DNA from: Owenia fusiformis
Taxonomy: Eukaryota > Annelida > Polychaeta > Sabellida > Oweniidae
DNA length: 64,000 nucleotides
NCBI GenBank assembly: GCA_903813345.2
Contig: CAIIXF020000001.1
Location: 21,719,915-21,783,914, forward strand
Reading direction: 5' to 3'
In this document: one piece after another, positions 2,953 to 54,500 of the stretch
Position numbering within the stretch: the stretch's first letter is position 1
Layout: each line of letters begins with the position of its first letter
Notes under the pieces: generated by a model
The model's input: the letters and a program-made list of their open reading frames with translations, nothing else
What the model was told of the DNA's origin: nothing
The model's database searches: none
Program-made: the position numbers and the translations under genes

Positions 2953-4722
2953 ATGACATCGAATACTGCAGACTCATCTTCAGTTATGAAGCCTGACGCA
3001 TCAAGAAAAAGGCATTCATCATTCAGTGGACACATTATTCATGGTAAGCTTATAGAATAATCAAAGCAAGCCACATAAGTTCAAGTTAAACATTATTCAT
3101 GCATTGTTTTAATATATGTATGTTATTAAATGCTATCTGGCATCTTTCATCAGTTGAACAAAGCATCAATGATTTTACATTGAATGGTACCAATGATGTA
3201 AATGTATATATAATAAACATGCTGGAATTTAGATGTACTTCAGCTCTATTTTGTCATTCTACTTAATTTGAAATGTCCATCTTTTACTTGAAAAAAAAAC
3301 AAATCAAAAAATCAATCCATGATCAATAAAATCAGGAAATCCAACAACCATTACTATCATGCACTTTTAAATGTTTGATACAATGTATTTTTCTAAATGA
3401 AATTTAATGTTTCTAAACAATTAGAATATCAAAATCTTAATTAATAAAATACTATACAATAGAATTATTGGGTTATATTTATCTCACCAGATTATTTAGT
3501 ATATGTACTTTCATCATTTGGACAAATGAGTTAACACTTTTAAATATACAGGGTGGCTCAAAAATCATATTTCACTTTGACATGTACTTGTATATTGAAA
3601 AACTTTGAACCACCCTGTCTGTAACTCCACTATTTGTCCACTGTGCATTATAGTAATTCATGATCATGCATTTCAGGTCATCACCATCACCGTAGCAACC
3701 TAAAGGTTGTTGGAGGCTGGTTGCTAACCATTTGTATTATCCTAAGCGTTGCTATGATCTACTTTGAACAGCTCCATCAGACAAATCTCAATGTCTATGC
3801 CAATTTAAATAATTGTGAAGAATGCAATGTAACATTGTCTTCCTCAAACTGTACATATGCTGCTCAATCCCGTCACTTTGTTGTGCTAGCAGCTCCGAGG
3901 ACTGGCTCAACTCTATTGGTTCAGTTGATAAACCAGCACCCAGATCTGAAAAGTTACCAAGAGCTGCTTCATATGGATATGCATTTAAGCCCCCGAGGGT
4001 TGGATAACAGTCCAAAATACAAAGTGTTCCATTATGTAAGAGATGTCATACACAAGTGGGGTTGCTATAAATTAACTGGTTTTAAACTGTATACTCAACA
4101 CTTAGAAGATGCAAAAATTGATCTAAGGACAGTGTTGGAGCTTTTAGAGTGGCCAAAAGTAATTGTCTTACATCGGGAAAATATGTTCGAGGCCTATGCT
4201 TCCTTGAGGAAAGCTTTTCAGACTCATATTTGGAACACTGAGATCCCAGAAGTGGCCAAAAGGCTCCAGGCTGTCCGGGTAAACGTGACATGGACAGAAT
4301 ATAAAGAGTATTTTCAAAGGCAGCGTAGATTATGGTATGCAAGTCTCAAAGATTTAGAGGGATATCCTTTCTTAATAAACTTCACATACAACGATGTTGC
4401 ACATTTCCATAAGGAAGTCATGAAAAAGATTGAGAAATTTTTAGGAGTTCCTCCTTCACCCGTTCCCTATGAGCCATTACTTATCAAAATCGGCACTGGT
4501 ACATTGCATCAAAAGGTGCAAAACTTTCAGGAAATAGAAGAATGGTATTTGGAGGAATTTGAAGATGATGTAAAAATTAACTTAAATGATATGAAAGAAA
4601 AGTTGCAGAATCCTGAGGAAAGAGACAAAATAGCAGCATTTTTCTTTAGATTAGCAAGACCACAAGGTGCCCTAGAAGCCCCTGCACACGAGGTTGAACA
4701 AATATATCCAGAGCTGGAGTAG
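2953..4722 (+). CDS. Golgi-type PAPS-dependent sulfotransferase, two exons
   Basis: Coding exons are 2953-3043 (ATG start, ending CAT-G before GTAAGC) and 3677-4722 (after a TTTCAG acceptor, ending in TAG), giving 378 codons in phase. The product is a type II membrane protein: a basic cytosolic tail with a His run at residues 32-35, one membrane segment at about 41-60, then a lumenal catalytic domain. Residues 104-109 (PRTGST) are the 5'-phosphosulfate-binding loop. Around Arg197 and Ser206 (VIVLHREN...AYASL) lies the 3'-phosphate-binding motif. This pattern resembles the NodH/Stf0-like sulfotransferases, which move sulfate from PAPS to a carbohydrate. N-glycosylation sequons occur near 81, 88, 233 and 265. 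The acceptor substrate cannot be told from sequence. An in-frame TTG-initiated reading at 3721 would lose the cytosolic tail; the two-exon model restores a normal signal anchor and is preferred. Confidence 0.85.
3547..3623. mobile_element. Tiny TACAGGGTG-ended MITE in the sulfotransferase intron
   Basis: The stretch starts TACAGGGTGG and ends with CCACCCTGTCTGTA, imperfect inverted copies with TA at each edge, as in Tc1/mariner-type non-autonomous elements. It lies about 50 bp before the exon 2 acceptor. The same ends occur at 20033-20878 and 54891-55053. Confidence 0.55.
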
Positions 4723-9394: not shown

Positions 9395-10320
9395 AAGTCA
9401 GATTTGAATTTCTGAGAACTTGTAAAGTCAAATTTGAACTTCTGAAAAGATGTAGATGATTTTGAAAAAAGAATTTGGTCAATTTGAAGCAAGTTGAAAA
9501 CAGACCTTTTTGACCTTTTTTTACCTTGAGAAGGTCATTAAAGGTCAAAAGTCAAATCTAAAGTCAGATTTGAATTTCTGGGAACATGTAGATGATTTTG
9601 AAAAAAAAAATTAGTCAATTTGAAGCAAGTTGAAAAAAGACCTTTTTTGACCTTGAGAAGGTCATTGAAGGTCAAATGTCAAATCTAAAGTCATATTTGA
9701 ATTTCTGAGAACATGTAGATGATTTTGAAAAAAAATTTAGTCAATTTGAAGCAAGATGAAAAAATACCTTTTTGACCTTTTTTGACATTGAGAAGGTCAT
9801 TGAAGGTCAAAAGTCAAATCTAAAGTCATATTTGAATTTCTGAGAACATGTAGATGATTTTGAAAAAAAAATTTAGTCAATTTGAAGCAAGTTGAAAAAA
9901 GACCTTTTTGACCTTTTTTGACCTTGAGAAGGTCATTGAAGGTCAAATGTCAAATCTTAAGTCAGATTTGAATTTCTGAGAACACGTAGATGATTTTGAA
10001 ATTTTTTTTTAGCCAATTTGAAGCAAGTTGAAAACAGACCTTTTTGACCTTTTTTGACCTTGAGAAGGTCATTGAAGGTCAAATGTCAAATCTAAAGTCA
10101 GATTTGAAGGTCAAATGTCAAATCTAAAGTCAGATTTGAATTTCTGAGAACATGTAGATGATTTTGAAAAAAAATTTAGTCAATGTGAAGCAAGTTGAAA
10201 AAAGACCTTTTTGACCTTGAGAAGGTCATTGAAGGTCAAATGTCAAATCTAAAGTCAGATTTGAATTTCTGAGAACATGTAGATGATTTAGAAAAAAATT
10301 AAAGTCAGTCTAAACAGTAT
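9395..10320 (+). repeat. Tandem array of about 127-168 bp units rich in AGGTCA half-sites
   Basis: The marker GTAGATGATTT recurs at about 9451, 9587, 9714, 9849, 9986, 10154 and 10280, so there are seven units of uneven length. Each unit carries TGACCTT words, usually an everted TGACCT-TGAGA-AGGTCA pair, and a direct pair AGGTCA-TTGA-AGGTCA (first unit: AGGTCA-TTAA-AGGTCA). Length variation comes mainly from gain or loss of TTTTTGACC and of a GTCAAATCTAAAGTCAGATT sub-block. Confidence 0.9.
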
Positions 10321-10530
10321 TTGTTAAGTTATAGGAAGTTGTAAGAAATTGTTACAGACGCCGGACGCCAACCGCCGGACGCCAACCACCAACCGCCGGA
10401 CGCCGTCGCAAAAAACGGAGACCATAACAATATGTCACCACTTTTGGTGGTGACATAAAAAAACGGAGACCATAACAATATGTCACCACTTTTGGTGGTG
10501 ACATAAAAACGGAGACCATAACAATATGTC

Positions 10531-12387
10531 GGCAGGGCTGCCCCGTTTCTGCAATTTCATTCATATTATGCTGTGAAGTTATGTCTTTGAAAATAGTTCA
10601 AAATAAAAAAATAAAGGGTATAGAAATTGATAACATAGAATATAAAATTTCACAATCAGCAGATGACACATCATTATTTATCAAAGATAAAGCATCCATA
10701 AGTGAAGCATTAAAAACTATAAAACAATTCTCGAAATATTCGGGACTTCAACTAAATTTAAGTAAAACAGAAGGAATATGGCTTGGAACCAATCGTACTT
10801 TTGAAAAAAAATTTGAAAATATTAATTTTACAGATGAACCTGTAAGATATTTAGGCATATATATAGGTCACAATGAAGATAAATGTTATGATTTAAATTG
10901 GAATGAGAAAATAAATGACCTTGAAAAAATTCTTGATTCTTGGAAAAAAAGACACCTTACCTTATTTGGAAAAATCACTGTTATAAAATCTTTAGCTATA
11001 TCAAAACTTATCTACTCAGCATCAATTTTATCTTATAAAGAAGAAATTATAAAGCGAATAAACAACTTGATATTCAACTTTTTATGGAATGGCAAGAAAG
11101 ACAAGATTAGGCGAACTATTATGATAAACAATATAGACAATGGGGGTCTAAATATGCTGGATTTAGAATCACAGCTAAATGCTCTTAAAGCTGTATGGAT
11201 TACCCGTATATACGACAAAAACAATATGTTTAACAAAATTCCATACTTTTATTTTGACAAACTTGCTCCAAGTTTGGATATTTTGTTAAAAATGAATGTA
11301 TTTTCTAAAGACAAGCTTGAGGGATTACCTATTTTCTACAAACAAGTTTTGAAAGCATTCAATAGCTGTAAAGATCTTGATGAAATAAAAAATCTGAAAC
11401 ACCATGAAATAGTCCAGCAAACCATATGGAATAACAGATTATTTCAATTAAAAGGCAAACCACTTTTCTTTAAATCTTGGATAGATAGTGGTATTATTTA
11501 TGTCAAAGATCTTATCATTCGAAATGATTTTTTAAATGTAAACTATATTCTAGAAAAATTGAGGAATAAAATAAATTGGATTTCAGAATATTTTCAAGTC
11601 TCAATTGCAATGAAATCAATAAAAAAAATCATTAACATAGAACAAGCAAACTTCACAAATATATCAAGAAAACTCAATTTCAAAGTAAAAAATGTTCAAT
11701 TAGATTTTAGAGGCCAAAAATCCAATTTCTTTTATAACATATTGAAGAATAAAAAATCTGAAAAATGGTTTGTCTCAAAAAAATGGGAAAAAGATTTCTG
11801 TATAACAAATCAATGTAAAATAGATGAAATAAATTGGCAGAATTTTTTTGTTAGCAAGATCATCAAGATTAAAGACAAAAAAGTTGCCAATTTTAATTTC
11901 AAACTAATTAATAACATACTTCCTGGGTTAACTGACTTATTTATCTATGGTATAACAAATTATTATCATTGTAGTATTTGCAATCACTTATGTGATTTGA
12001 AACATATTCTTTTTGAATGTTGTTTGTCAAAGAATATATGGAAATTTATATACAACACATGTGGTCTCAATATTTCGTATAGAAAAATAATAATTGGTTA
12101 TAATGGCCAAGACTCTCAAACTAATTTTCTGAATTATTTTACAAGTATAGTTGCTTACAGCATTTACAAATCCTACATTTTAGAACTGAATAGTAAAGAA
12201 CAAAGAACATTTGAAAAGATACTTTTTATGTTAAAATATGAAATTAATTGTAGAAAAAATTTGTATTATTGTTCCAAATGGAATTTATTATCCAAACTAC
12301 TGCAATGAGATTATGTAAACCTGTTTTTATAAATCATGTACTGTCTATATATTTAGTAAATGAATGAAATAAAGACTATTTTAAAAG

Positions 12388-14949: not shown

Positions 14950-17900
14950 TCACACAGGCATTTGTGGACTCCTGTCATTATCCAAATCCCGCACCTGGAA
15001 AATAGTGAAGAAATAAATATCAAATGAAAATCATGCAAACACTTTTGAAGAGAAAAGTGGATTTAAACGATCTTGATCTTCACCCTGGAATAGCCTGACA
15101 ACGGTAAAGTCAGATACCGTTGTCACAAATGGCAGACATAACCATCGCTTCAATTAGATTTTCATAAACTGTATGTTTAATAGAGCACCTAGACTAAATT
15201 CCTTTGGAACAACAATCAATCAAAGTGTTTAAAAACTCATTTTTCAGTTAATAATGTACCATCGAAATAAAGTCTTTAATTTAACCGATCAAAATGAGAT
15301 ACGGGACAGCGGACACTGTAATTACCATATGCCGTTGTCTTTCTAAATTACTCAAATTCAGACTCTGTGTCATTGACAATATCAAAGACGCTATATTGTG
15401 GCGATTCACGACTCAATTTGATCGAAAATGGGATATGAAACATTATCACAAGAGCTTAATGCAGGCACAGAATTAGCGACGATAAAATCCCATGAAATGA
15501 GTACCAAGTGATTAAACAGTTGAAGCGACTGTTATGTCTGCCATTTGTGACAACAGTATCTGACTTTACTGTAGTCAGGCTATTCCGGTGTGATCTTGAG
15601 CTGACTGTAAAATAACTCACATCAAGTATCCAGATTGCCCGCTTGTGCCTCCAGTCTACATAACTTTTATATAATAATACTTGATTATTCTTACATATTG
15701 CATGTCCTTATCTTATACAAAGTCCCTTAAAATGTTGATATTTTAACAGTTCTTGTACTAGTTTTATTTACTTATTAACTTATAACCAGCAATATCTCTT
15801 ACCTTAGGACATACACATGGTAGACAACAGCTGAGGAACTTCCGTAATAGTTGGAGTTCCCCGAAGAAAACGGTCTCGTAATATTCCATGAATGCGAGGA
15901 ATATGATAAAGAGGCCAAATGAGATGAGGACAGTGAGCGTGACATGGACTGGAAACATTGCACTTCCCGGCTGAAAGTAAACAGAATATCAAAATTGAAC
16001 ACCAACCACCACCACAAAAAAATTGGAGACCATAACAATGTGTCGCCACTTCTGGTGGTGACATAAACATCATAACATTTGACCATTAGTAATTTAAAAA
16101 AAAATGTATTTTTTGAGGAATGACTTTTGGTGCGCAGTAATGCTGAGACTGCACTAAACTAAATAGCTGTACATTTATATGTTACATACACATACATTGA
16201 ATGTGTGATTGGTACTGGGTATGACCCTGCCCCCTAGCCCCCACCCTCCCATATTCACCAGTACATACATTGTACAAAGCATACATTGAATATGCGTGGT
16301 ACTTACTGGGTATGACTCTGCCCCCCTTCCCTCCCCCATATCCACCAGTACATACACTGTACAAAGCATACATTGAATATGTGTGGTACTTACTGGGTAT
16401 GACCCTGCCCCCTACCCCCCATATCCACCAGTTCACACACTGTACAAAACATACATTGAATATGTGTGGTACTTACTGGGTATGACCCTGCCCCCTACCC
16501 CCCATATCCACCAGTTCACACACTGTACAAAACATACATTGAATATGTGTGGTACTTACTGGGTATGACCCTGCCCCCTACCCCCCATATCCACCAGTTC
16601 ACACACTGTACACAACATACATTGAATATGTGTGGTACTTACTGGGTATGACCCTGCCCCCTACCCCCCATATCCACCAGTTCACACACTGTACAAAACA
16701 TACATTGAATATGTGTGGTACTTACTGGGTATGACCCTGCCCCCTACCCCCCATATCCACCAGTTCACACACTGTACAAAACATACATTGAATATGTGTG
16801 GTACTTACTGGGTATGACCCTGCCCCCTACCCCCCATATCCACCAGTTCACACACTGTACAAAACATACATTGAATATGTGTGGTACTTACTGGGTATGA
16901 CCCTGCCCCCTACCCCCCATATCCACCAGTTCACACACTGTACAAAGCATACATTGAATATGTGTGTACATACTGGGTATGACCCTGCCCCCTACCCCCC
17001 ATATCCACCAGTTCACACACTGTACAAAACATACATTGAATATGTGTGGTACTTACTGGGTATGACCCTGCCCCCTACCCCCCATATCCACCAGTTCACA
17101 CACTGTACAAAGCATACATTGAATATGTGTGTACATACTGGGTATGACCCTGCCCCCTACCCCCCATATCCACCAGTTCACACACTGTACAAACCATACA
17201 TTTAATATGTGTGTACATACTGGGTATGACCCTTCCCCCTACCCCCCATATCCACCAGTTCACACACTGTACAAAGCATACATATATATGTGTGGTACTT
17301 ACTGGGTATGCCCCCCCTGCCCTCCCCCATAAGCACCAGTACATACACCGTACAAAACATACATTGAATATGTATGGTACTTACTGGGTATGACTCTGGT
17401 AGGTTCCACTTCATGGCGTAGCCTTTGATAAAAAGAATAACTGCAGCTATGAACACAATCATGCTCAGTATCGTGAGTAGGAAAAATCTGTATACCTGAA
17501 GACAAATGATTATTTTAGATTTAATACAATCAGTTTTACTAAAACAGTTCATATGTGTGTCTTAAGGTATTTATCATAGAATTATGCACCTCATTGAAAT
17601 CCTGTATTCTGAAAGCTTAAATGCATGTTACTGTACAATGACTTTTAAATTTTCAGATATTTGAGGAATTTTTTGTCTTCTATTCTAAGCATACCCCTAG
17701 GTGTCAGAGAAAAGGATGTCTAAAATCTAGAAAAGCACCTGATAAAATATCATATGTGATGCATATGGCAGAATACTTGAAATATCATGTGCGATTACCA
17801 AACACAAAAACATCATGAACGTGAGATGCAGTGCATGATGAAGAAGTGGGTTCATTTACTGTCCCATAAGTACTGTCATTTTCTATATATCTACTGTACA

Positions 17901-26400: not shown

Positions 26401-29400
26401 AGTCCCAGTTGCGTTCTGGTAGGTTTATAAACCTACTCAGTGCTAAGAGAAAAGAAACAGGACCCAGTTGGTACCTCTTTAACTGGACAATGATGATGTG
26501 TTGCAGATTTTATCTCTAGAAACCTCGTTTTCATCTGACTGTATTTCCAAATTGCAACCCAGTGTTGGAGATGCAACAATATATTTTTAAATGATTGTCA
26601 AGATCAAGAAAAGTCAGAGAAAACCGTAATCGGGAAATTTCAGAATTTCCTCAAAATGGTTAAAATAGTCGGGAAATTTTAGAAATTCCAAAAACTACTA
26701 TAAGGTTATTACAATATTATTGACCTTCATTGCCAATACTTTAATAGAAATACAGCTCTTTAATATGAATACAACCATGAAACACAATAGCTCTGATCTA
26801 CTGGTCAAATATCAATATTTTCTATTTGCAGACCTGGAGAACACATTGGATGTGAATTCATTATTATTCATCTGCATTTACCTCTTAATCTATAACGAGT
26901 TCTTTAGTTTGAAAAGACGGAACAAGTTTGTCAATAAGAAACCTCTGTTGCTAGCTTTTAGCTCATAATGGTGCCTTAGTTTCTAATGAATGATATAAAT
27001 ATATCTATTAATAATGTTGAAATGTCTATAATTGATTTTGGTTCGTAGCACTCATATTTTACTTGAAAATATTAACGAAATTAGAGACTTGTGAAATGAT
27101 GATGTTTTCCTTAAATAAGAGATATTAATGTATAAATTTTTGTGAAGATCAAGCAATGTCCATATTCCATCAACATTTAGTATGTGAAACCTGTTAAGTG
27201 AAACACTTCTAGAAGCGGAACACCTCTGTTACTAGAACAACACTGAACCTGTATAAATGGAACATTTTTTAGAAGTACCAAATATGTTCCACTTAGACAG
27301 GTTTTACTGTATATACTGTCTTTGAAAAGTTAATGTTCTATTCCAAAATGACATAAGCATCATGAGCGTCATTTAGGCCTGATGGGCCCAGTTTAGATCC
27401 AGATCCTTCTTAATACTGGTAAAGGTTGAGGATTCTGCAGAAAAGTAAATTATCTGTACATGTATCTGGTTTTGTGCAGACATTTTGCGGTTTCTTACTT
27501 ATGTGGTCATATAGCCAGTTGTACACATTGGTATTTTGGATTCTAGCAAATCCCCTAATGGTATCATCTTGAAATCCAATTTTTCAAACAATTCATGTTT
27601 AAACCAGTGGTTCATGAACCCAAATAAATAGTTTACTCAAATCTTATTTAGGACTGCGGGTGGGCTTAGGTAAGACTGGGACAAGTATAGGAACTCTTTG
27701 TACTGCCCACCAGTGTGTAAGACTGTGTTTAAAATTATTTGAACCAGACCTACCTTTAAACATGGAATTAGACTTTATTGATTAGATAAAATGTTCCGAT
27801 CTCACAAGCAGTTCAATAGAACCATATGGGGTATTCATTGAGTGATTTCAATAGAGTTTTACCCTTATATTGTGAGACTGCTCAGCTATGATATGCTCTG
27901 ATATAAAGTCTTGAATTATTTTATTTTAGGCTTGTTCAAGATTGAATCATTGTGTTTAATAAACCAATCTATTTCAAAAATAGCCATTGGGTTGTTCAAA
28001 AAGTTTTGAATGAAAGCCTCTCAAAAGATATTTTTAGTTGTTTTCTTTTTCAAAAGTGATATTGATCACTGTGTCATCCTCTTTGTCACCATATCAACCA
28101 TTAAGTGTTAATTAAGAAAAGAGTATACATGTACATGAAACCAATAGCAGTAGAAGTGAATTAGGTGGGGGCAACTACCCGACAACAAGAACAAGATTGG
28201 TTCATTATTTTAATAGCTAGAAATATTTCTGTCAAACATTTTGAATGACCCTGATATTAAATGTCCTTTGGGAAAAATAAGAAAGCAAATGCAAAAGCAT
28301 TTGAAATATTATATGGATGGACGTTTTGAGTAAAACAAAGATAATCTGAAAATTGAAAAAACGACATATTTGATGTTCACAAAAACAAATGTATAGATGT
28401 ATATAGCCATTATACATATAATATATATACAGTAAAACCTGTCTTTGTGAACACCTATGTCTAGTGAATACACAATAATTGAAAGTGAAAGAAGGAAAAG
28501 AAGAATAAGAAAAATAGAGAAAAAATATTTTATACTTCATTGTTTTCAGTACATCTACCTCTGCATTAAATACATGACAAAAACATTTAGAAACATATCT
28601 CCACACCATTGATTTATTTTAATGAACTCAATACCTCTAACATGTTACCTCATAGACTTTTATTCAGCTGTCATCAGATTATTTCTTATCAGATTATCTA
28701 CTGAACATTTTCTTTAAAATATAATGTTCTAAATAAATATTGTTTGTAAGGAATGAAAACAAAATTCAAATTAATGAAAATCTAAGAGTAGGTCAACAAG
28801 ATGGTGTTTGAAGGTTACACAATATCCTATTAATTTAATATTTTAATTCAATATTTTGCTTCAAATTAGGTACAACTTTAAATGGGTCTTATTGAAATGT
28901 CAAGAATTGTTAATATAAACCAGGGTTGAAATTGTTGTATGGATCAAGTTTGAGTATTGCTTTAAGGATTTATGCTTATGTTATGCTAAAGCTAAGATAT
29001 CAATCAATTGATAGAATTGTTATAAATTGAACTTCAAGTTATTATGTTTTAAACATATTTGGTTTCATGTGATTCCCAAAATATTTATAACATGAAATCT
29101 GTCATATTTCTCCAAAATCCAGTTCTTATAAAAAATATATTTTTATTATCTCACGGTGCAGGTAGATGACACAAATTATATACCTCCAATTGACAGTCAT
29201 ATTGTAGTATTTTAAATGAGGCGCTACAAAAAAATTATTTATAATTGTAATAAATTATTATGTCACCACCAAAAGTGGTGACATATTGTTATGGTCTCCG
29301 TTTTTTTTATGTCACCACCAAAAGTGGTGACATATTGTTATGGTCTCCGTTTTTTTTTATGTCACCACCAAAAGTGGTGACATATTGTTATGGTCTCCGT

Positions 29401-32400
29401 TTTTTTGCGACGGCGGTTGGTGGTTGGTGGTTGGAGGTTGGCGTCCGGCGTCTGTAACAATTTCTTACAACTTCCTATAACTTAACAAATACTGTTTAGA
29501 CTGACTTCAATTTTTTTCTAAATCATCTACATGTTCTCAGAAGTTCAAATCTGACTTTAGATTTGACATTTGACCTTCAATGACCTTCTCAAGGTCAAAA
29601 AGGTCTTTTTTCAACTTGCTTCACATTGACTAAATTTTTTTTCAAAATCATCTACATGTTCTCAGAAATTCAAATCTGACTTTAGATTTGACTTTAGATT
29701 TGACATTTGACCTTCAAATCTGACTTTAGATTTGACATTTGACCTTCAATGACCTTCTCAAGGTCAAAAAAGGTCTGTTTTCAACTTGCTTCAAATTGAC
29801 TAAATTTTTTTTTTAAAATCATCTACGTGTTCTCAGAAATTCAAATCTGACTTAAGATTTGACATTTGACCTCCAATGACCTTCTCAAGGTCAAAAAGGT
29901 ATTTTTTCAACTTGCTTCACATTGACTAAATTTTTTTTCAAAATCATCTACATGTTCTCAGAAATTCAAATTTGACTTTAGATTTGACTTTAGATTTGAC
30001 ATTTGACCTTCAAATCTGACTTTAGATTTGACATTTGACCTTCAATGACCTTCTCAAGGTCAAAAAAGGTCAAAAAGGTCTGTTTTCAACTTGCTTCAAA
30101 TTGACTAAATTTTTTTTTCAAAATCATCTACGTGTTCTCAGAAATTCAAATCTGACTTAAGATTTGACATTTGACCTTCAATGACCTTCTCAAGGTCAAA
30201 AAAAAGGTCTGTTTTCAACTTGCTTCAGATTGACTACATTTTTTTTCAAAATCATCTATGTGTTCTCAGAAATTCAAATCTGACTTTAGATTTGACTTAA
30301 GATTTGACATTTGACCTTCAATGACCTTCTCAAAGTCAAAAAAGGTCAAAAAGGTCTTTTTTCAACTTGCTTCAAATTGACTAAATTTTTTTCAAAATCA
30401 TCTACATGTTCTCAGAAATTCAAATCTGACTTTAGATTTGACATTTGACCTTCAATGACCTTCTCAATGTCAAAAAAGGTCAAAAAGGTATTTTTTCATC
30501 TTGCTTCAAATTGACTCAATTTTTTTTTCAAAATCATCTACATGTTCTCAGAAATTCAAATATGACTTTAGATTTGACATTTGACCTTCAATGACCTTCT
30601 CAAGGTCAAAAGGTCAAAAAGGTCTTTTTTCAACTTGCTTCAAATTGACTAATTTTTTTTTTCAAAATCATCTACATGTTCTCAGAAATTCAAATCTGAC
30701 TTTAGATTTGACATTTGACCTTTAATGACCTTCTCAAGGTCAAAAAAGGTCAAAAAGGTCTGTTTTCAACTTGCTTCAAATTGACCAAATTTTTTTTTCA
30801 AAATCATCTACATCTTTTCAGAAGTTCAAATTTGACTTTACAAGTTCTCAGAAGTTCAAATTTGACTTTACAAGTTCTCAGAAGTTCAAATCTGACTTAA
30901 GATTTTTTTAACTTGCTTCAGATTGAACAATTTCTTTTTTCAAAATCATCTACAAGATCCCAGAAGCTCAAATCTTCAAAAACCTTCTTAAGGTCAAAAG
31001 GTATTTCCCAACTTGCTTTAAATTGACCAAATTGTTTTAGGTGGTGACATTTTGTCATGTTAATGCCTTGTTATTAATTTGTAGGCTACAGCTAAGTTTC
31101 TTCTGCGTCGCACCAAGAAGAAGCTCAATACACTTCCAAAGGAAATGGCTCATGGCAGGTAATACATGCATATTTCGTAAAAATAGGTCTGAAATTGAAA
31201 GAGACCATTCTTTGTAAAAGTCACAGTAATAGATCCATATAGCTTCAGAAAGTCTTGCAATTCAAATGATCCCAGCTTTATTTTAATTTCTATTTTTGTT
31301 CTACATTTTGTCCCTAATTGCATTTGTCTTGTATGTACTAATTACATTTGTATTAATTATTCATGAAATATAAATCGATTTGAAAAAAAATGTTTTGTTA
31401 TAGCTGGAGCAAGGAATACAGAAAAGATATTGTTATTGATATATTAAAACTGATTTTTTTGCAGGAGCATGATGAAAAATGTGCGACTGGGACATGGTCT
31501 GTTCTACATGATCAACAAAGAGAGACATGACAAGGTAGAATATCATTATTTAGGAGCCCTTTGTTATTTTTTATGACCCATTGGGTAGCATTATTTATAA
31601 GCTTTATTTTACTAAAAAAGATTATCTATTTGTGATCACTGATTAGTATCATTATTTGTGAGTCCTTTGGTAGCATTCGTGACCCAGGGGTTCAGATCTT
31701 AATAAAAAGAACTCTGAATATAAGAGATAAGGCTCAGTATATTAATTATATTAATTATTATTTTTCTACAAGATATAATGAAGATCATTGAGAGTGAATT
31801 ACATTTATACCAATGCAGCTAAAACTTGTTGAATGAAATGGAGTCATAATTGAAGATTCTTCTTGGCATTACTTCAAACTTACCTTGTCACATTCTTTTG
31901 ATGATTAAACTCTAACTTTCATAAACATGAATTTAAAGATATATAATAGTCATATTCAAAAAAACTCTACATTCAAATTATTTGAACTCTATGGCATATC
32001 AGGTTAAATTAATGCCAAATATGGAGGTCAATGTTCTCTTGGTCTTTAAGGTCATAGCTGACTTATATGATAATGAAAATGTGAGTTTTTGTTTTGAAAA
32101 TGTGAGTTTTTGTTTTGTTTTATTACTAAAATTTATAATCAATAGATTAGGCACTAAGTTCAGAACATACCATGAAAACAGGAGAGGGGGACTTTGAGTT
32201 TTCAATCTCAAAACAATTGAACAGATTATTTTGTCTTACAATATTCAAAACATGTGCTAATTTAATCCTATAAGCACAGAGTGTTGTCTATACACAAATG
32301 TACATATATTGTGTGTATTCTAGGAGCAGGTAAACATTACAGATTAGAATCCTCCTTATCTGAATGCAACCTTTTATCAAATTATTGGCTTGAGTTGGCC

Positions 32401-41400: not shown

Positions 41401-44400
41401 AACACAATTTGTGAAGATTGGATAAAAATTGCCAAAGTTTTAGTGAAAGCAGTTTTAGCGAAAAATTCTGTGACAGTCGCTCTGGGTTCCCAATGGATTT
41501 TATTTGTGACAGATATATCCGTCATTCTGAGTATCCAAGAGGTTTAAATAAACAGTTCAAGCTCTATTATTGTCTATATTTTCAGAGTCTGATGCAAGCC
41601 CCTTCATCACCTGGTATTAATAATAAACAACATGAGATTACAGACATTCCTGAACATGGTGAGGTGTCCAGAGATGTTACTATTGAGAAACAGCCAGTAG
41701 AGGAGGAGGAAGTTGGAGGGGGTGGCTATGCTAAAGGTAAGAGTTAATTCTAGTTAATGAACAAAATTGATATATGGTTATCTGGTTAAAATGACATTAT
41801 TTTGAAGCTATTAAGCTAGGTGTCCTACGATTCATCAAAATCATGTTCTACATTTCCAAAAAATCATCTTATCAACTTAACTACATATACATGTACTTGT
41901 AAATTTGAATGTCTTAACTCAGAATTAAATAGGGACTTACACTAGTAGTTAAGTGCAGCTATGAAATCTCTTCTATTTTCAACTATCTCAATTTTTCAGG
42001 ATTTTGTCTTGATCAAGAAACAAAGAATTTAGTGAATTTTTTGCACACCCAATGTATTATTTGGATTTGAAAATTTTGAAATAATTCTTTGCCTTTTTAA
42101 TTTCTTTTAGGTTTATTTAAATTTCTGGATGACTACTATGCAACAATGAGATTAGAAGAGTCTAAAGCTAAAGGTGGCGCCGATATAACCGAGGACAGCC
42201 AATCACTGACAATACATGACAATACAACAATTTCTCACGATGGTGCCAATTCTCCAAAGAAAAAGAAACATAGGATACGAGCCAAATCAGAAAATAAAAA
42301 GACTGCAGACAATACATTCCATGTGAGTCTCATTATGTTAATTGGACTTTCTTTTGATTAATACAAAAATTGAAACAAAGCAATCAAATGATTTTAGTAC
42401 AGAAATTTTACATTTATATCAATATTTATGGTACGTTGAATTAGGGGAAAGTGAGATATTGTTTTTGTATCTATTTTTCTTTTGATAAGAGTTATCAACT
42501 TCATGAATAATTGCATGTGATATTGTGGCTTGCTTTATTCACCAATCCTGTTCCATCTTTAGCTTGAAGATGCTGCAGAAGAAAGGATGCGGAGGATAAT
42601 GGAACGGTCCATCAAAGAGGACACAATGTCAGTGAACAATCTAAGAGCTTCCAGGTTTATAAGACCGAAGAGGTGTGTAAATACTAAATATTATGGTTTG
42701 TTTTGGGATATTTTAGCAATCTTTTGTATATTTTTTTGATGTTTTTGCATGGTGTTGGTTTTGATTTTTGTTTTTTTTATAAGATTTATAGTGATTTGGG
42801 TGTGATTGAGTTATTTAAAGATTCTGTTAGATGCAACTTATGCCAATGGGCATCCAGCGGCATGATTTCATAGTGTATGTTATGCAAGAAATTATGAAAT
42901 AAATTGAATTGAAAAAATGCCTTGGCATATCTTACTCTTGTCTTTAAAAAGAATTACAATATTTGCTCCACATAGATATAGTTCTGAATCTGGAAATATT
43001 AATATCAAGAATATCAAACAACCAGACAAGATAAGCAGAGTGAAATACAATTCAGCTAATGATAAACACTGTTTTAATTTCAGTTCTCCAGCTTTAGTTG
43101 AGTTCCAGAATAATGCCCTTAGTAACAAGTATGGTTCAATGGCTCTGAACATGAGACAACAGTTCTCTGAGGTTCATGAAGAGAAAGCCGTTGTGCTGCA
43201 TGATGAATTGGAACACAGGGAGAGGTAGGTTTGATGTACTGATGGCTGTCTGTATTCTTGCTAATGACAGAGTGTTCCTAGAACTAGGCCCATTTCATAA
43301 TGATATACATACAATGGAAAAGATTTTACCATACAAATCAGACTCCAAATTTTTGAGAGTAATTCCAGGTTTTATTCTTTGACACAAAAGAAGGAGTAAA
43401 ATACTAGTTGTCCCACATCAGCATTCAATCAGGTCCAACATGTTAATAATGTTAATAGAATCAGGTCCAATATGTTAATGATGTTAACAGAATCAGGGCC
43501 AACATGTTATTGATGTTAACAGAATCAGGTCCAACGTGTACATGATGTTAATAGAATCAGGTCCAACATGTTAATGATGTTAACATAATTCAGGTCCAAC
43601 ATGTTAAAATGCTGGTAACATGTTAACAATAGTTATCACGTCAATTTCTTGAATGGAAAACAACCCTTTATTCATTTTTGTGTGAGTAATATACATGTGC
43701 ATGTGAATTTCAGACAAAGACTGAAGGTGTGTCAGAACAAATATGTGTCACTGAGCAGTAAAGGTTTAGGTCTCCACCGTATGTTGGAAGATATGAGGGC
43801 CAGGAGTGCAACACTCATGGAAAGACCTGATGAGAAGAAAAATAAGAAACGCAGCGATCACCAAGCCTGGTATGTATATGTTATACACTGCATACCCCAT
43901 ACGTTTCACAATGAATTCTACACATCGTCCATTCTTTTAAACACTCAGCAATTTTGTGAAAGATAATTTTGTACTTATATCACTTTTTATCGGCAAAATA
44001 TGATCTGATTATCAATTGTTGCTATATGTTCATAATAATCCAAATTACTCACATGTACTGTCCATAATAATCCAAATTACTTACAGGTACTGTCCATAAT
44101 TATCCAAATTACTCACATGTACTGTCCATAATTATCCAAATTACTTACATAAATCACCCATTTTTAGGATGTTGCTTCCTCTTCATAATAATCAAAATTA
44201 CTTTAAACATAAACCATCTATTTTCAGGTATGTTGACCTCCAACTACATATGCCAGAAGATGCCAATCAGTATTGGTATTTCCACAAAATAATGGAAAAA
44301 CTTGCTAAATTTGCAGCAGTAAGTGACTATTATATGTCCCATATTATGTTGGAACCAAATTGCATCAAAATAATTCCGTCTTATGATTTATTGATTGATT

Positions 44401-47161
44401 GACCAAATAAATAATATTTATGTCCTGAATCTACATGTGATTTTGTAATTTGTGCCACAATCATAAAAATCAAGCACATTTCCTTTTGAGATTTCCTTAA
44501 TGTTGCACCATATCAATTCTGTGAATAGTTTTTGCAAACCCGAAGTGTAACAATCTACTTGAAACAATTTGGGTTTGCAGGTTGAGAGTTTGTGATGTTT
44601 TGCATTGAGTGATCCATTTGTATTGAAAAAATATGTATTCATTTCTAATCTAACAGAAAATGGCGGAGAAAGGCTCAGAAGAGGTATTCATAACCCCTTA
44701 ATCATTAATGTTTTGAAAATGTTTTAATCATTTATTTTAATAAATTATTTTCTTCTATATTTCGATTATTGCACTTTTTACATGTTTTAATTTTGCCCAT
44801 TTTCCTTGGTTTTGGGAATTTACGAATTTATTATTCTGCATAATCTTTTATAGGTCTTTACTATTTCTGATAAATATTTTTATTATAAGCAATTACATTC
44901 CTGGTATACTCTATACATTTTATTTCTCAGTTTTGAAATGCATGTACATTTTGTCAGGCACAATTTCAAGTCAAGAGCTATGCACATTTCTGCTTCGTGT
45001 AGGTTGTCGTCGGTGAAACTTTTATTTAATTGATTTGTATTACATAGTTTTAAGTGACTGTATCCTTGTATGCAATCTAAAGTCAGAAACTGGAACTATC
45101 TGAGAGATTGACAACAAATTCAAATATTCAAAATTACATATCTGATTTATACTTGATGATAAACATAACATAGCAAACATCATATTTAATTTAAATTCAT
45201 TTTCTCTCTTATGCTGTTATACTCCTATACTGTACTGTGTGTGCACAATGCACATAACTTTGTCAGTTTTGCATCAAGTTCTCGCTCATATATCCTTTTT
45301 CACAATGATTATGATTAAAACACCATTGACTGATTTCAAACAGGGTACAAAAGTAGGAAATCATGTAGGGGTATACAAGAGGATGGGAAATCATGTAGGG
45401 GTATACAAGAGGTTGGGAAATCATGTAGGGGTATACAAAAAGGGTAGGAGATTGTGTAGGTGTATATAAAAGAACATGTGTGGTTACTCTGCAATGAAAA
45501 AGGGGTAGCTCTAGAGCAAAGACTTGATGCAATACTGCTATACCTGTGTGTGTACATGCACTGTGATTGATTATCTTAACATGTTGTTCTGTTGTTAACA
45601 CCTAACAGTTGCCCTCTGAGGAAGAGCAGGAGTTAAGAGAGGCTGAGGCTCAGGTAAGACTATTGTCTTCTTTGCCTTGATTTGATTTGATTTGATTTGA
45701 TTTGAAAACTATATTTATTCTGGGTAGCTCTATCAGTGCAAAAAACTGGTCTTCCTAGAGGCCCAGTAATAATTTACAATTATTTACAATGTGTACACCT
45801 TCAGGTAATATATGACATAAATATGTGAACCCTTTTTTAATATGTGAATATGGGCTCCCCCTTTACTTTTGGTCATGCCTTCTTGTGAAAAAGTACACTA
45901 AAACCTTTCAGATTGAACAGTACGCTAGAATGAATGTTTCTGTAATGAACACTTTTTCATGTTTTTTTCTCCAGATTTCCATGTAAAAGTGACCTTTCTA
46001 AATCCTGTCTGACCCCCAAACCAAAAATGTTCTTTGTCTTAGAGTGTTCACTTTAAAGGGGTTTTACTGTACATTTTCATTTGTTTTAACCCTTTTACAA
46101 TGATTGTAACCTGTAAGTGACCATAATACCTGATTACTAGATGTTATCTACTTGAAGAATGATTCCCAGGATATTGTGTTGAGTATAGTGCATATTCTGT
46201 AACAAGCACTGTATATGTTTTTTAGAGAATTTGAAATTAAATGTTATTCTATGATTGCATGAACTATGCACAAGTATTCTTAAAGCACATACACATTACA
46301 CAAATATGAATTAAGCTATCTTTATGGCAATTCATATAAGGGGTCCCATATTCACTGGTGATCCACTCAATTACGCTGGTTACCAAAACGGTTCGTTTTG
46401 GTAACAAAATGTTGGAACGTCGAATGTACGATTTTTCTTTTTTCCTTATTTCACGCGTTGTAGGCAGAATCCCCACGAAGTTTTTGGTAAACGGTTAGGG
46501 TTAAAAGTGCAGATCTTAACTGTTTTTCGAAAAACCTTTAATGTAGCTTAAGTGAGGAATTAAATCGACGATTCTGTTGTCTTCTGAACTATTTGTAGGC
46601 AAATATGTACATTTTCTTAAACATGTGATACTGATACACGTTTGTGTTAAAAATGTCACTTGAAATAAGGAAAAAAGAAAAATCGTACCTTCCATGTTCC
46701 GACATTTTGTTACCAAAATGAACCGTTTCGGTAACCAGTGTAATCGAATTGATCACCAGTGATATTGTTTCCACATCAAACTTCTGTAATATCTTTAAAA
46801 CTTTCAAGTACTCAATTTTTAATGTTCAGTCTTTGGATACTATTTATGACACTAACATGGCACAAACATTGCCTTGACATTTTTTTTACTTTTTCAGCTG
46901 GAATCTGGAAGCCAACAAGGCACCTACAAGTTCCTCAAGGTATTAGCCGCCTTAAGACATTGGGAAATATTAAATCCAGATATTTCGGCAGCAATTGAAT
47001 TTTGCAGAGAAAAAATCATCCAAATGCCAATTGAGGAATACGAGGAATGGTTTAGGTCACAATTTCCCACAATTGAACGACCCCAAACAGCACCACCTAG
47101 TATAAAAGGAGACACTAAACAGCGTGAACATTCCCATCAACGGGAAAAGTCAGCTCGGTGA
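23479..47161 (+). CDS. CCDC60: CCDC60 orthologue (DUF4698 coiled-coil protein), 21 coding exons
   Basis: Exons: 23479-23766, 26155-26238, 31085-31158, 31465-31534, 32901-33028, 34357-34458, 35265-35411, 35817-35921, 36181-36279, 36559-36597, 37789-37860, 40897-41049, 41586-41736, 42111-42322, 42563-42672, 43084-43224, 43714-43869, 44228-44318, 44657-44683, 45609-45653 and 46898-47161 (TGA), about 850 codons. Recognition rests on remembered vertebrate CCDC60: RPYTP, then EPLFRQLCILNWLLEAM (exons 7-8), the WNL..GGTKTTVK region (8-9), the helical WYVDLQLHMPE part (18), and LRHWEILNPDISAAIEF with QMPIEEYEEW (21). The protein is soluble, with basic and Ser-rich low-complexity stretches in exons 10-14 and heptad-like helices in exons 15-18. 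Its molecular function is unknown. It is longer than the human protein of about 550 residues as I recall it. Phases agree at every junction except exon 8 to exon 9, where one base is lacking; exon 10 has a weak donor (GTTTTC). Confidence 0.85.
23767..26154 (+). other. CCDC60: CCDC60 intron 1
   Basis: AT-rich intron between a GTAAGT donor and a TTATAG acceptor. I see no further genes or clear repeats in it. Confidence 0.6.
27181..27312. mobile_element. MITE of the CAGTAAAACCTGT family
   Basis: It begins TATGTGAAACCTGTTAAGTG and ends ACAGGTTTTACTGTATA. Internal words such as GTGAAACAC, GGAACACC and GTTCCACTT recur in the other copies. A TA dinucleotide at the edges fits a Tc1/mariner-type target. 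Confidence 0.65.
29259..31072 (-). repeat. Composite dispersed repeat, copy 2, inverted relative to copy 1
   Basis: It starts with three tandem hairpin units (TATGTCACCAC and GTGGTGACATA around CAAAA, then a TTGTTATGGTCTCCG spacer), followed by the GC-rich GGCGTCCGGCGTC segment, an array of about eleven units (29470-30975) and the terminal AGGTGGTGACATTTTGTCAT end. Order and sequence mirror 9331-12500 without a LINE insertion. It sits in CCDC60 intron 2. Confidence 0.9.
29470..30975 (-). repeat. Tandem AGGTCA-rich array, second copy
   Basis: The marker AAATCATCTA recurs at about 29518, 29645, 29816, 29939, 30119, 30246, 30393, 30528, 30665, 30800 and 30936. Most units carry TGACCTTCAATGACCT, the reverse complement of the DR4-type pair AGGTCA-TTGA-AGGTCA. 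A 30-bp sub-repeat with TTCTCAGAAGTTCAAAT is tripled near 30810-30900. Confidence 0.9.
32605..32725 (+). repeat. Decayed unit of the AGGTCA array
   Basis: AAGGTCAACAGAATGTCAAATCTAAC-like text, then AGGTCAGATATGAA and GAAGCAAGTTGAAAAC, follows the order of the array unit at 9480-9600 but with many changes. It lies in CCDC60 intron 4 and shows that the family is old as well as recently active. Confidence 0.6.
34603..34696. mobile_element. MITE of the CAGTAAAACCTGT family in CCDC60 intron 6
   Basis: It starts CAGTAAAACTTGTTGCACAA and ends GACAGGTTTTACTGTA, with an internal palindrome near 34640-34665 (ATCACA and TGTGAT type). It is about 95 bp long. Confidence 0.75.
38147..38390. mobile_element. 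Small MITE nested in a dispersed repeat
   Basis: The outer repeat (CCAGAAGCCGTACCTCCTTCTT ... TATTCTGGATTT ... CGGAGGATG) also occurs at 62205-62280, where CCTCCTTCTTAC runs almost straight into GAATAGATTCTGG. At 38170-38332 that junction is opened by about 160 bp with inverted ends (CCCCCTGCTATAACC and its imperfect complement). The 62-kb copy therefore acts as an empty site. Confidence 0.7.
38696..39070. repeat. 75-bp tandem repeat, five copies
   Basis: Units begin TACTGGTTCCACAATTATC at 38696, 38771, 38846, 38921 and 38996. The period is divisible by three, so a long open frame of 117 codons runs through it. This is a by-product of the repeat and not a supported gene. Confidence 0.95.
39215..39700. 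repeat. Dispersed repeat, copy 2 (partner at 1795-2135)
   Basis: It shares ordered words with the first copy: CATAGGTTTCTCCCC, GACAATCA, CCAGGCAGCCAA, CAGCACAATCGCAAA, TTGGTAAG and GGTGAATATGTGGT. It has about 150 bp more in the middle. It lies in CCDC60 intron 11. Confidence 0.6.
43427..43612. repeat. Tandem repeat of about 33 bp, five copies
   Basis: Units with AATCAGGTCCAACATGTTAA and TGATGTTAACAG repeat with small changes in CCDC60 intron 16. Confidence 0.9.
44033..44155. repeat. 32-bp tandem repeat, about four copies
   Basis: Units with CCAAATTACTCACATGTACT and GTCCATAATAAT alternate TACTCACA and TACTTACA. The array lies in CCDC60 intron 17, upstream of exon 18. Confidence 0.85.
45350..45475. 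repeat. About 31-bp tandem repeat, four copies
   Basis: Units with GGAAATCATGTAGGGGTATA and CAAGAG repeat, the last diverged (AGATTGTGTAGGTGTATATA). It lies in CCDC60 intron 19. A short TTTGA microsatellite follows exon 20 at 45676-45706. Confidence 0.85.
45894..46071. mobile_element. MITE of the CAGTAAAACCTGT family in CCDC60 intron 20
   Basis: It starts TACACTAAAACCTTTCAG and ends GGGGTTTTACTGTA, with internal GAACAC and GTGTTC words like the other copies. Confidence 0.6.
46352..46762. mobile_element. MITE with about 105-bp terminal inverted repeats in CCDC60 intron 20
   Basis: The left arm TCACTGGTGATC...CTGGTTACC...TTTTGGTAACAAAATGT and the right arm are inverted copies through GTACGATTTTTCTTTTTTCC and CTTATTTCA. 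The middle is about 200 bp with no coding sign. It ends about 135 bp before exon 21. Confidence 0.88.
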
Positions 47162-49744: not shown

Positions 49745-51526
49745 ACAAATTGCATTTATTCACATTTACTCGAGTCTCTAGCCAAATCACTTAGCTAGAA
49801 GACATGGCATGTGGACCACGGTGCACTAGTGAAAACATTGATTCTGGAGTAGGATTTTTTTAGATGTTATTCTAAAAATTGTAATGAGAATATTTCATTA
49901 AATAGAATGTAAACGAATACTACCCTTTCTGAGATATTGCATGCTTTCGTCTAAACTTAAAATCATTTGGTCTGCCATTTATAAAAACATCTGTTGAGGT
50001 TGATCTTTATCTCGCTTTAGCGAAAAACAAAATGGCCACTTTTACCGAAGGATTTTTTTCAAAAGATTGCTCTTAGAAAAGACTAAATAAAAGCCAATGT
50101 AGATGGTCATATGAACAAAGACTACATACTATGTTCAGTGAAGGTATGTTTATTACATTTGAGTTAATTTATAGCAACAGACCACACGGGATAGCGAAAA
50201 AGCGATAAAACAAACAGGGTTTAATGATAGCGTAAGGCCACACTGTGGCCAAAGAATAAGGTAAATTCACATCATCTAAACAATTTCAACAATTCTGTTG
50301 CAAACTGTAATACATTGCACTGAATATAAAAGGGGACAGTTTAGTGTAAACATTTATTTGCCAGAAAACTCATCATACTCTGCCTACCTTAAGTTAATAT
50401 ACTTGAGTTAGAGGCTTTTAAGCAGAGAAAGTAGTCTAGCTACAAGCTCTTGTGACCTCGCCCGCCACTACAAGTAAGAAGGTGTGTAGTCTGGGGGTCA
50501 CAGAGGCTTGTTGCAAGACTACATAGAGAGCATATTTTGTTTAAGTAAGCCCAGAAAGATATCATGCAGCACTCAAGTGTCAGTTAGTTTGCATTCAAAC
50601 ACCCTTATGTGTACCTTATAGAAGATGCAAAGCATAATTAGACATTTCCAATAAATCCTGACACCTTTTGGTGAACCCAAGAAACTATGATATATTGTCT
50701 CGATTAATGATGTCATACTTTTACAGGTAGCAATATTTGCAAAATTGTATGACATTTTGGTAAGCAAAAGGTTAATCCTTCTTCTGTGCTGAAACTGCAT
50801 GAATGACCTTAAAACTAACTAAAAGGTGCCACGATTTATTGAATTGGTCTATTGCCATTATATGGAGTATTGTTACCATGTACCATGTTAATATTTCATA
50901 GAAAGCAGCAGACTATAGACTTATGTTATTGATAGTTCATATAAGAATAGAAGTGCAGGTCAGCTGTGGTTAGACTCAGGCAGCATGTCTTGCATTTGCT
51001 GCAAAACAAATAGGAGAAATACATGAAAATTCAGCAATCATAGGGTGCTTTAAATGCTGCTTTCAGAGACTTTTGTATGAATAGCTTTGCAAGATCATCC
51101 ATTCTTGATGAGCTTTGATAATTTTTTTCTTTATTGAGTTGAAGATAGGATCAAAGCGCATTGAAAATAGACAAATGAATGCAAGAAAATTATTTCACAA
51201 ATGCCTAGATTATGTCCGATTTTCAACTTTTAGCACAAATCTGAGTAAGAATTTTCCTTTTTTCACTTATTAAAGGTCTATTATGTTTTTTGATTAAAGT
51301 AAAGAATATATATTAAAATCCCTGAATCTGAGATATGAGAAAACATGTTACATGTACTGCACTTTCCGCCACTAACATCTGTAACCCACCAAATCTGTGA
51401 CACTTCAATCAAAGATATTCTGTAACACCCTTCTGATCAATCCTTCAGTGTCAGCAATCATTTACATTAACAGAGCACGTGCAGACACGTGAAGTGCCTA
51501 ATCTTTTACTATGATGCACTATAATT

Positions 51527-54500
51527 TTATATTTTGTCATTATAATACATTTGATTTTGTTGAGGAATCTTACAAGGATATTCCTCCTTTTCCTCCCCGA
51601 CAACATATCCATGGTTTACCTCCATCTTAACGTGATTCTCGTCTTCAGCATATTTCTCAATAGCCCATGGTTGGACCACACCACGTGCCAGTATTAGAAA
51701 GGCAATCATCCCAAACACTCCAATGGCAACTGCTATAAGATATGTGACCTGCCACTCTTCACGAGTTCCCTGGAACACAGAGACAATCACATTGCAATTC
51801 ATGAAAAATCCAGCAGGCACAGTTATTCAAATTGCAATTTTACATAGAAACATGCCATTCTCTTGAAATTAGGAATGTGAAAATTGCATTTCAATAAAAA
51901 ACACAAGACATAAAAGGGTACCCATAAAAGACATAATTAGTTTCTAGCTTGACAAACTGTATGCAGTGAAACAATGTGAGTTCTTACATCAGGCATTAGC
52001 ATTTGAATGTATGAGTACTTACATCAACTGTGAGCATTTGAATGTACTGTACAAGTATTTACATCAGGCTTAGGCATTTAATGAACAAGTATTCATATTA
52101 GGTGTGAGCATTTGAATGTACAAGTACTAACATTAGGTGTGAGCATTTGAAAGTACAAGTACTTACATTAGGTGTGAGCATTTAAAGACCAAGTACTCAT
52201 ATTAGGTGTGAGCATTTGAATGTACAAGTACTTACATTAGGTGTGAGCATTTAAAGAACAAGTTCTCATATTAGGTGTGAGCATTTGAATGTACAAGTAC
52301 TAACATTAGGTGTTAGCATTTGAATGTACAAGTACTTTCATTAGGTGTTAGCATTTGAATGTACTAGTACTTACATTAGTTGTGAGCATTTAAAGAACAA
52401 GTACTCATATTAGGTGTGAGCATTTGAATGTACAAGTACTTACATTAGGTGTTAGCATTTGAATGTACAAGTACTTACATTAGGTGTGAGCATTTAAAGA
52501 ACAAGTACTCACATTAGGTGTGAGCATTTGAATGTACAAGTACTTACATTAGGTGTGAGCATTTAAAGAACAAGTTCTCATATTAGGTGTGAGCATTTAA
52601 AGAACAAGTACTCACATTAGGTGTGAGCATTTGAATGTACAAGTACTTACATTAGGTGTGAGCATTTAAAGAACAAGTACTCATATTAGGTGTGAGCATT
52701 TGAATGTACAAGTACTTACATTAGGTGTTAGCATTTGAATGTACAAGTACTTACATTAGGTGTGAGCATTTAAAGAACAAGTACTCACATTAGGTGTGAG
52801 CATTTGAATGTACAAGTACTTACATTAGGTGTGAGCATTTAAAGAACAAGTTCTCATATTAGGTGTGAGCATTTAAAGAACAAGTACTCACATTAGGTGT
52901 GAGCATTTGAATGTACAAGTACTTACATTAGGTGTGAGCATTTAAAGAACAAGTACTCATATTAGGTGTGAGCATTTGAATGTACAAGTACTTACATTAG
53001 TTGTGAGCATTTAAAGAACAAGTACTCACATTAGGTGTGAGCATTTGAATGTACAAGTACTTACATTAAGTGTGAGAATTTAAAGAACAAGTACTCACAT
53101 TAGGTGTGAGCATTTAAAGAACAAGTACTCACATTAGGTGTGAGCATTTGAATGTACAAGTACTTACATTAAGTGTGAGAATTTAAAGAACAAGTTCTCA
53201 TATTAGGTGTGAGCATTTGAATGTACAAGTACTTACATTAGGTGTGAGCATTTGAATGTACAAGTACTTACATTAAGTGTGAGCATTTAAAGAACAAGTT
53301 CTCATATTAGGTGTGAGCATTTGAATGTACAAGTACTTACATTAGGTGTGAGCATTTGAATATAAAAGTACTTACATTAGGTGTGAGCATTGTAATGACT
53401 ACAGGAGCCACCATACCAGGGATTGTACCTATAGTATTTGTAATCCCAAATAACAGCCCTGCATATCTGTAATATAGTAAATAAATAAATGAGAGTACAT
53501 CAGATTTCAAGTTTTACATTGGCCTATCTGCCTATACAGTATTATTTTCATCAATCTTGGATAAAATTTAGTAAAAGAAGCCTATGTTCTTCGTTTCCTT
53601 ATCAAATAATATTTCTAAAACAAAATTAGCATTACATTAGGACACCCTGTTAGACTGTAAAAAAATATTTTTGATTTTCCACAGCACATTTTTTTTTACC
53701 TTGGTGCAATGTCGACATGGTTGACCTGATAGCCAGATTTCTGTGGTCCTGTACATATTCCAATTAGTGCAAGTAGTACTAAGGCTTGTATCCTTAGATC
53801 ACAATCAAGGAAACTCACCCAGACAGTCAGTATAGCAGGCAATACTATACCTGAAAAAGATGATATATTAGATCTTGTATTTATAGAACATTATATTTAT
53901 TTAATTTCTTGTACCAACAGAGTTTTTTATAACATACTGTCCTGGGTTACTGCACACACCTTGCTAAAGACTTCAGGAAGATAAGTCAGGTCCTGAGCCA
54001 GATATAAGACGTTTTGTAGCATTGTACCGAAACACATAAAGCCTTTATTATGTACACTAGGCTTTACATTGTGCTTGCAGTATTTAATTTTTATGAATGC
54101 GTACAAGAGAAGTTCCTGGAAACATTTTTTCAATTTTAAAGTCCAATGATGGCACTTCATGAATTTACAGCCAATAGAATAATGGTTTTCAGTCAATAAT
54201 TCATATAATTTTTCAATCTTCTTTACAATAATTTCCCAAGGTTGTATTTGTCTAGTCTGGAAGGGGTTGCCTCAAATAACATAACATGCAGCTTCTAGAG
54301 TGGCAATAATGACAGTACCTACAAACTGGAATAACTTCCTGACTGCGACTGTGGACAACCATTTCTTCGAACGAATGACATCTGCAAGTTTGGCAAATGC
54401 GACCACAGACACTATACCAATCACCATGACAATAGCTGACAAGACACCATTCTAAACAAAACACAAATACATTTGTTTCATACATTTTGATTTCATATGA

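Follow-up and report, generated by a model that had tools for sequence, protein, structure and literature searches.

A tandem array of an exon end and its splice donor in the last intron of an Owenia fusiformis SLC17 gene

A 64,000-nucleotide stretch of the annelid Owenia fusiformis genome (assembly GCA_903813345.2, contig CAIIXF020000001.1, positions 21,719,915 to 21,783,914 of the forward strand; here called the window and numbered from its first letter) carries a gene of the SLC17 family whose last intron is mostly minisatellite. The repeat unit joins the last 16 nucleotides of exon 9 to the splice donor that follows them, and the array starts within the exon and runs into the intron. We consider it quite probable that this is a minisatellite of the kind called a 'mirage', which was tolerated under use of the first donor and then expanded within itself.

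The array begins inside exon 9 of a predicted sialin/VGLUT-like gene

The features of the exon 9/10 junction are the following.

53376-53466, minus strand: exon 9 of the SLC17 gene, 91 nt, YAGLLFGITNTIGTIPGMVAPVVITMLTPN, ending at a codon boundary, placed by gap-free protein alignment over the junction
53376-53391, minus strand: last 16 nt of exon 9, which form the exonic portion of repeat copy 1
53370-53375, minus strand: putative authentic donor GTAAGT, the sole GTRAGT of the array in frame with exon 10 (1 of 26)
51770-53375, minus strand: intron 9, 1606 nt, mostly repeat, with 3' acceptor TTCCAG
51530-51769, minus strand: exon 10, coding GTREEWQVTYL... through the C-terminus
51979-53391, minus strand: donor-spanning minisatellite of exon end plus donor, 41 copies, all 34 or 35 bp long except one of 40 bp, from Tandem Repeats Finder (TRF) and parsing

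The partial protein joined from the exons matches PDB chains of sialin (E 7.8e-106) and VGLUT2 (E 3.9e-85), the five best matches displayed being four sialin and one VGLUT2 alignments, and it also matches Pfam MFS_1 (E 3.1e-52). Homology thus places the array in a minus-strand SLC17 gene of sialin/VGLUT-like type; its exon numbers follow the original prediction, made from the letters of the window, and its first exon was not located. Across the junction, the protein ...MLTPN/GTREEWQ... (slash at the junction) aligns without a gap to sialin ...SLTPDNTVGEWQ... and to VGLUT2 ...AMTKNKSREEWQ..., in support of splicing from the first donor. Only the first of the 26 GTRAGT donors (R, A or G) reads in frame into exon 10; the products of the 25 downstream ones each shift the frame or meet a stop codon, and none (0/25) enters exon 10 in frame. 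We infer that the first, exon-proximal donor is used and that the array is removed with the intron. Among the explanations that the original prediction had offered, tolerance of duplications that keep a first donor intact fits these observations best.

TRF reports a period of 35 and 40.7 copies over 51979-53391. Parsing, in which copies were located by fuzzy match to the exon-derived letters, resolves 41 copies when the end of the exon itself is counted; 23 of them measure 35 bp, 17 measure 34 bp and a single one measures 40 bp, bearing out the predicted minisatellite in the last SLC17 intron. The repeat begins 16 nt inside exon 9, and those 16 bases match the unit exactly. They are intact in 29/41 copies (28 of the 40 intronic ones). 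GT stands at +1/+2 in 30/41 copies and A at +1 in 10/41, while GTRAGT is kept in 26/41, as GTAAGT in 19 and GTGAGT in 7. The original prediction had every unit carrying both the 16 exon bases and GTAAGT or GTGAGT; this is not the case, the two features occurring together in 18/41 copies, or 17/40 when the exon copy is left out. GT at +1/+2 has been lost from 11/41 copies, some of which sit within an exactly duplicated block described below.

An extension of the homology between exon and unit beyond 16 nt was tried and dropped, since similarity further upstream in the exon was not significant (shuffle P 0.057; 537/4124 control windows equally good). No match at gathering score was returned by Rfam for 51500-53600, and a reading of the array as a functional RNA was rejected on that ground. 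By eye only, a short direct repeat, CATT, lies at both edges of the unit; as a sign of slippage between repeats flanking the unit it is too short to count.

Growth and divergence within the array

Two further features bear on how the array grew.

52381-53000, minus strand: mid-array block of 276 bp (8 units) duplicated exactly in tandem, with a 344-nt exact run at shift 276
51979-52080, minus strand: three diverged distal copies with G at -3 (GAT), the other 38, exon included, having A (AAT)

Because the exact 276-bp block duplication sits in the middle of the array, growth occurred at least once in its interior. Growth polarised from the junction is unsupported: similarity to the exon copy shows no gradient with distance among 37 copies (Spearman rho 0.04, P 0.80), and the same test over all 40 intronic copies gives rho 0.24, P 0.14. 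The interior is homogenised and the distal edge copies have diverged, as in a mirage; the edge copy on the exon side is undiverged over the 24 positions compared.

At the -3 codon, exon 9 reads AAT (Asn), and sialin has Asp there. The distal GAT copies may keep an older exon end, an idea that rests on three copies, and at this position exon and array may have changed in concert. Variation among copies also bears on the donors. Alternative alleles number 6 at the 6 donor sites, 11 at the 16 sites derived from the exon and 6 at the six sites from +7 to +12. The donor hexamer is thus more variable than the exon-derived part and equal to the next six sites, so that donors in the array are unprotected.

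Other donor-spanning duplications in the window

Two other tandem duplications cross a donor.

16232-17398, minus strand: first donor-spanning array, 83 bp x 14, exon end ...CAGAGTCATACCCA at 17385
32074-32117, plus strand: third donor-spanning duplication, 21-bp unit TGAAAAT/GTGAGTTTTTGTTT (slash at the junction), 2.1 identical copies, where the predicted exon 32003-32080 ends

In the 83-bp array, 13 of the 14 last exon bases match the unit, and its 15 copies carry GTAAGTAC in 11 cases, GTATGTAC in three and a degenerate form in one. The protein of its gene has no Pfam match at E<=0.1. The origin at an exon/donor junction that had been proposed is supported for both arrays, and the two-copy case at 32074-32117 adds a third. 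The exon there is predicted from open frame, splice signals and phase, and for its gene Pfam returned nothing at E<=1 and the PDB a single match (E 0.41). Use of the second donor would insert seven in-frame codons (21 nt). This 21-bp case shows such an array at an early stage. The geometry of the two larger arrays, described in the original prediction as identical, is what any donor-crossing tandem duplication whose first copy is used would be expected to show.

Elsewhere, an array at 44027-44150 (32 bp x 3.9) contains GTAAGT/GTGAGT on the strand antisense to a plus-strand gene; it is intronic and does not lie at a junction.

Placement of arrays relative to donors

Fifteen arrays were counted (TRF, period >=20) after two regions with dispersed, transposon-like tandem repeats, 9423-10530 and 29258-30898, had been set aside. 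Three of these 15 span a donor, with unrelated units of 83, 35 and 21 bp. Under uniform placement, the probability of at least three of 15 arrays falling on a donor is 0.0007-0.033 for 20-82 donors, a range assumed for the window and not counted; if donors or acceptors are scored, the probability of at least three is 0.005-0.17. Conditional on the introns of seven arrays, at least three has P 0.019 and at least two P 0.13. The intron-based tests include 32074 and leave out array 38693, which was not placed in an intron, as well as seven of the eight small arrays, and in the length-based tests the intron ends are off by 1-3 bases for the arrays at 16232, 18881, 43427 and 44027. All of the array tests are post hoc, and we regard three of 15 arrays on donors as suggestive.

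Arrays of at least three copies begin at 16232, 18881, 38693, 43427, 44027, 45346 and 51979. Five of these seven are not at any modelled junction, 38693 not having been placed in a gene. The original statement that two of two large minisatellites arose at donors holds only when the arrays with period >100 (9423-10298 and 29511-30840) are excluded, and it also needs the exclusion of the five shorter arrays of at least three copies at 18881, 38693, 43427, 44027 and 45346. A ranking on large arrays only (2/2; P 0.0003-0.005 for 20-82 donors) was set aside as using a post hoc threshold.

A near tandem copy was found at 3/52 GTRAGT sites outside the large arrays versus 101/6000 random positions; the three sites represent two loci only, one of them the 32074-32117 case. 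Five SLC17 donors besides that of exon 9 have no near tandem copy, in a screen in which one of seven donors (E4) was not located by the search string.

Other features of the window

The window has a G+C content of 33%. The regions 9423-10530 and 29258-30898 hold a dispersed repeat, in opposite orientations by eye, with 125-300-bp tandem units and a 48/49-bp foldback-like unit; at 9423-10530 it overlaps the start of a reverse-transcriptase frame, 10476-12305 (Pfam RVT_1). An open frame of 352 codons at 3664-4719 (plus strand) matches Pfam Sulfotransfer_3, and a multi-exon gene at 40-47 kb (plus strand) yields joined frames that match Pfam DUF4698. The array at 45346-45472 (30 bp x 4.3) has a unit that is a multiple of three and forms an open plus-strand repeat of 10 residues; it is intronic as modelled.

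Discussion

The course of events that we favour began, as the copies themselves show, with tandem copying of the end of exon 9 together with the start of the intron, so that every copy initially consisted of an exon end and a donor. Splicing would have picked the first donor and left the additional copies intronic. The mRNA would then have been unchanged, and the duplication for that reason tolerated. Growth followed inside the array, with at least one exact duplication of an 8-unit block, presumably by unequal exchange or slippage; the array was homogenised, many copies lost their donor by mutation and the distal edge copies diverged. The presence of several donor-sited arrays in the window would mainly reflect the silence of donor-spanning duplications under a first-donor rule. 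Those within coding sequence would not be silent, nor would those across acceptors where the first acceptor is the one used. Because only the first splice signal would be used, the array is probably harmless.

Several points weigh against this account. The case for the first donor is built on protein homology and reading frame, and in classic two-donor competition experiments the intron-proximal donor can be favoured, which runs counter to a first-donor rule in its simple form. An assembly error could, in principle, account for the exact 276-bp duplication, and fuzzy matching to exon letters may slightly inflate the conservation of the exon-derived part. Finally, three of 15 arrays on donors exceeds uniform seeding for most of the donor counts assumed, which makes a donor-linked seeding bias possible.

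Such a bias would arise if a feature of the 5' splice site (an R-loop, U1 or transcription-replication conflict) actively started tandem duplication. The three unrelated donor-spanning units in 64 kb, with their low probability under uniform placement, and the near tandem copies at two GTRAGT loci are what this would produce, and mirages are described at several lancelet genes in the parts of PMC3087553 and PMC3902484 consulted. However, the statistics are post hoc, the exon map is incomplete and acceptors were not systematically screened; the intron-conditional probabilities are 0.13 for at least two and 0.019 for at least three, five other SLC17 donors lack a near copy, and tolerance predicts the same excess. 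Seeding driven by the donor is unlikely in our judgment, and tolerance under first-donor use is the more likely of the two. A better contender, if still short of an even chance, is an ordinary intronic minisatellite whose seed, by chance, fell across the donor of a short intron. The probability of such an overlap is 0.12 for the SLC17 array, given an ancestral intron of roughly 250 nt, and 0.20 for the 83-bp array, and most arrays of at least three copies lie away from modelled junctions, but three cases in 64 kb are a little many. Chance in this sense concerns the placement of the seed only, and is compatible with tolerance as the best explanation of persistence.

It is very improbable that the repeated donors were themselves selected, whether to recruit U1 or to serve as decoys, adjusting splicing or preventing premature polyadenylation. 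GTRAGT does survive in 26/41 copies. The donor hexamer, however, exceeds the exon-derived part in variability and equals the six positions from +7 to +12, and the 11 copies without GT include loss alleles that were copied along in the exact block duplication. Pairing energies predicted for the copies with the 5' end of U1 span -6.9 to +1.2 kcal/mol. With no support from copy counts or allele variation, selection on the donors was rejected.

A wider reading, which we put forward tentatively and hold to be rather doubtful, is that donor-spanning tandem duplications are common in this genome, arising or surviving far more often than acceptor-spanning ones. If so, the window would display a ladder of two copies for the 21-bp unit (in frame), 14 for the 83-bp unit and about 40 for the 35-bp unit, and the asymmetry between donors and acceptors would record in the genome either a 5'-to-3', first-donor-wins rule or duplication linked to donors, in an animal other than a lancelet or mammal. 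Each array is a natural experiment in which dozens of near-identical donors compete, with one productive answer by frame in the SLC17 case. Whole-genome counts of donor- versus acceptor-spanning duplications would tell whether splice-site choice shapes the duplications that survive and the growth of introns.

Comparison with known systems

Minisatellites that span exon-intron boundaries are already in print. The portions of PMC3778950 and PMC7373156 consulted contain nothing on the repeats. In human segmentally duplicated genes, minisatellites at exon-intron boundaries are described as altering the intron (PMC2812944, in part); unlike the SLC17 array, these belong to recent primate paralogues, average four 30-bp units and often yield alternative transcripts. 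The Rogers model of intron gain by tandem duplication, in which the duplication carries splice signals, is cited in the part of PMC3087553 consulted. Unlike in that model, no new intron is seen here, the SLC17 junction joining homologous protein without a gap. Closer is intron 7 of the human coagulation factor VII gene (F7), where, according to the section of PMC6627357 consulted, donors are repeated, only the most upstream is used and splicing is said to be undisturbed. The F7 unit is 37 bp, its gene and sequence differ from those of the SLC17 array, and unlike there, 15/41 copies here lack GTRAGT.

The closest parallel is with the mirages of amphioxus globin genes, minisatellite-like tandem duplications of exon-intron boundaries that vary in length and apparently leave splicing undisturbed, with Adh3 and other amphioxus loci also cited (PMC3087553, in the part consulted). 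Mirages are likewise described in amphioxus PGBD5 and troponin C, that of PGBD5 being said to leave splicing undisturbed (PMC3902484, in part). As far as these excerpts go, the mirage of BflGb6 comprises 6 and 3 acceptor-side units of 150-160 bp, that of BflGb9 is a donor-side duplicate of 157 bp and the Adh3 units measure 10-72 bp, whereas the SLC17 array has about 40 copies on the donor side. In the same excerpts, the features shared with the SLC17 array are a unit that spans the exon-intron boundary, splice signals kept in many but not all copies, and a homogenised interior with boundary copies left out of the homogenisation.
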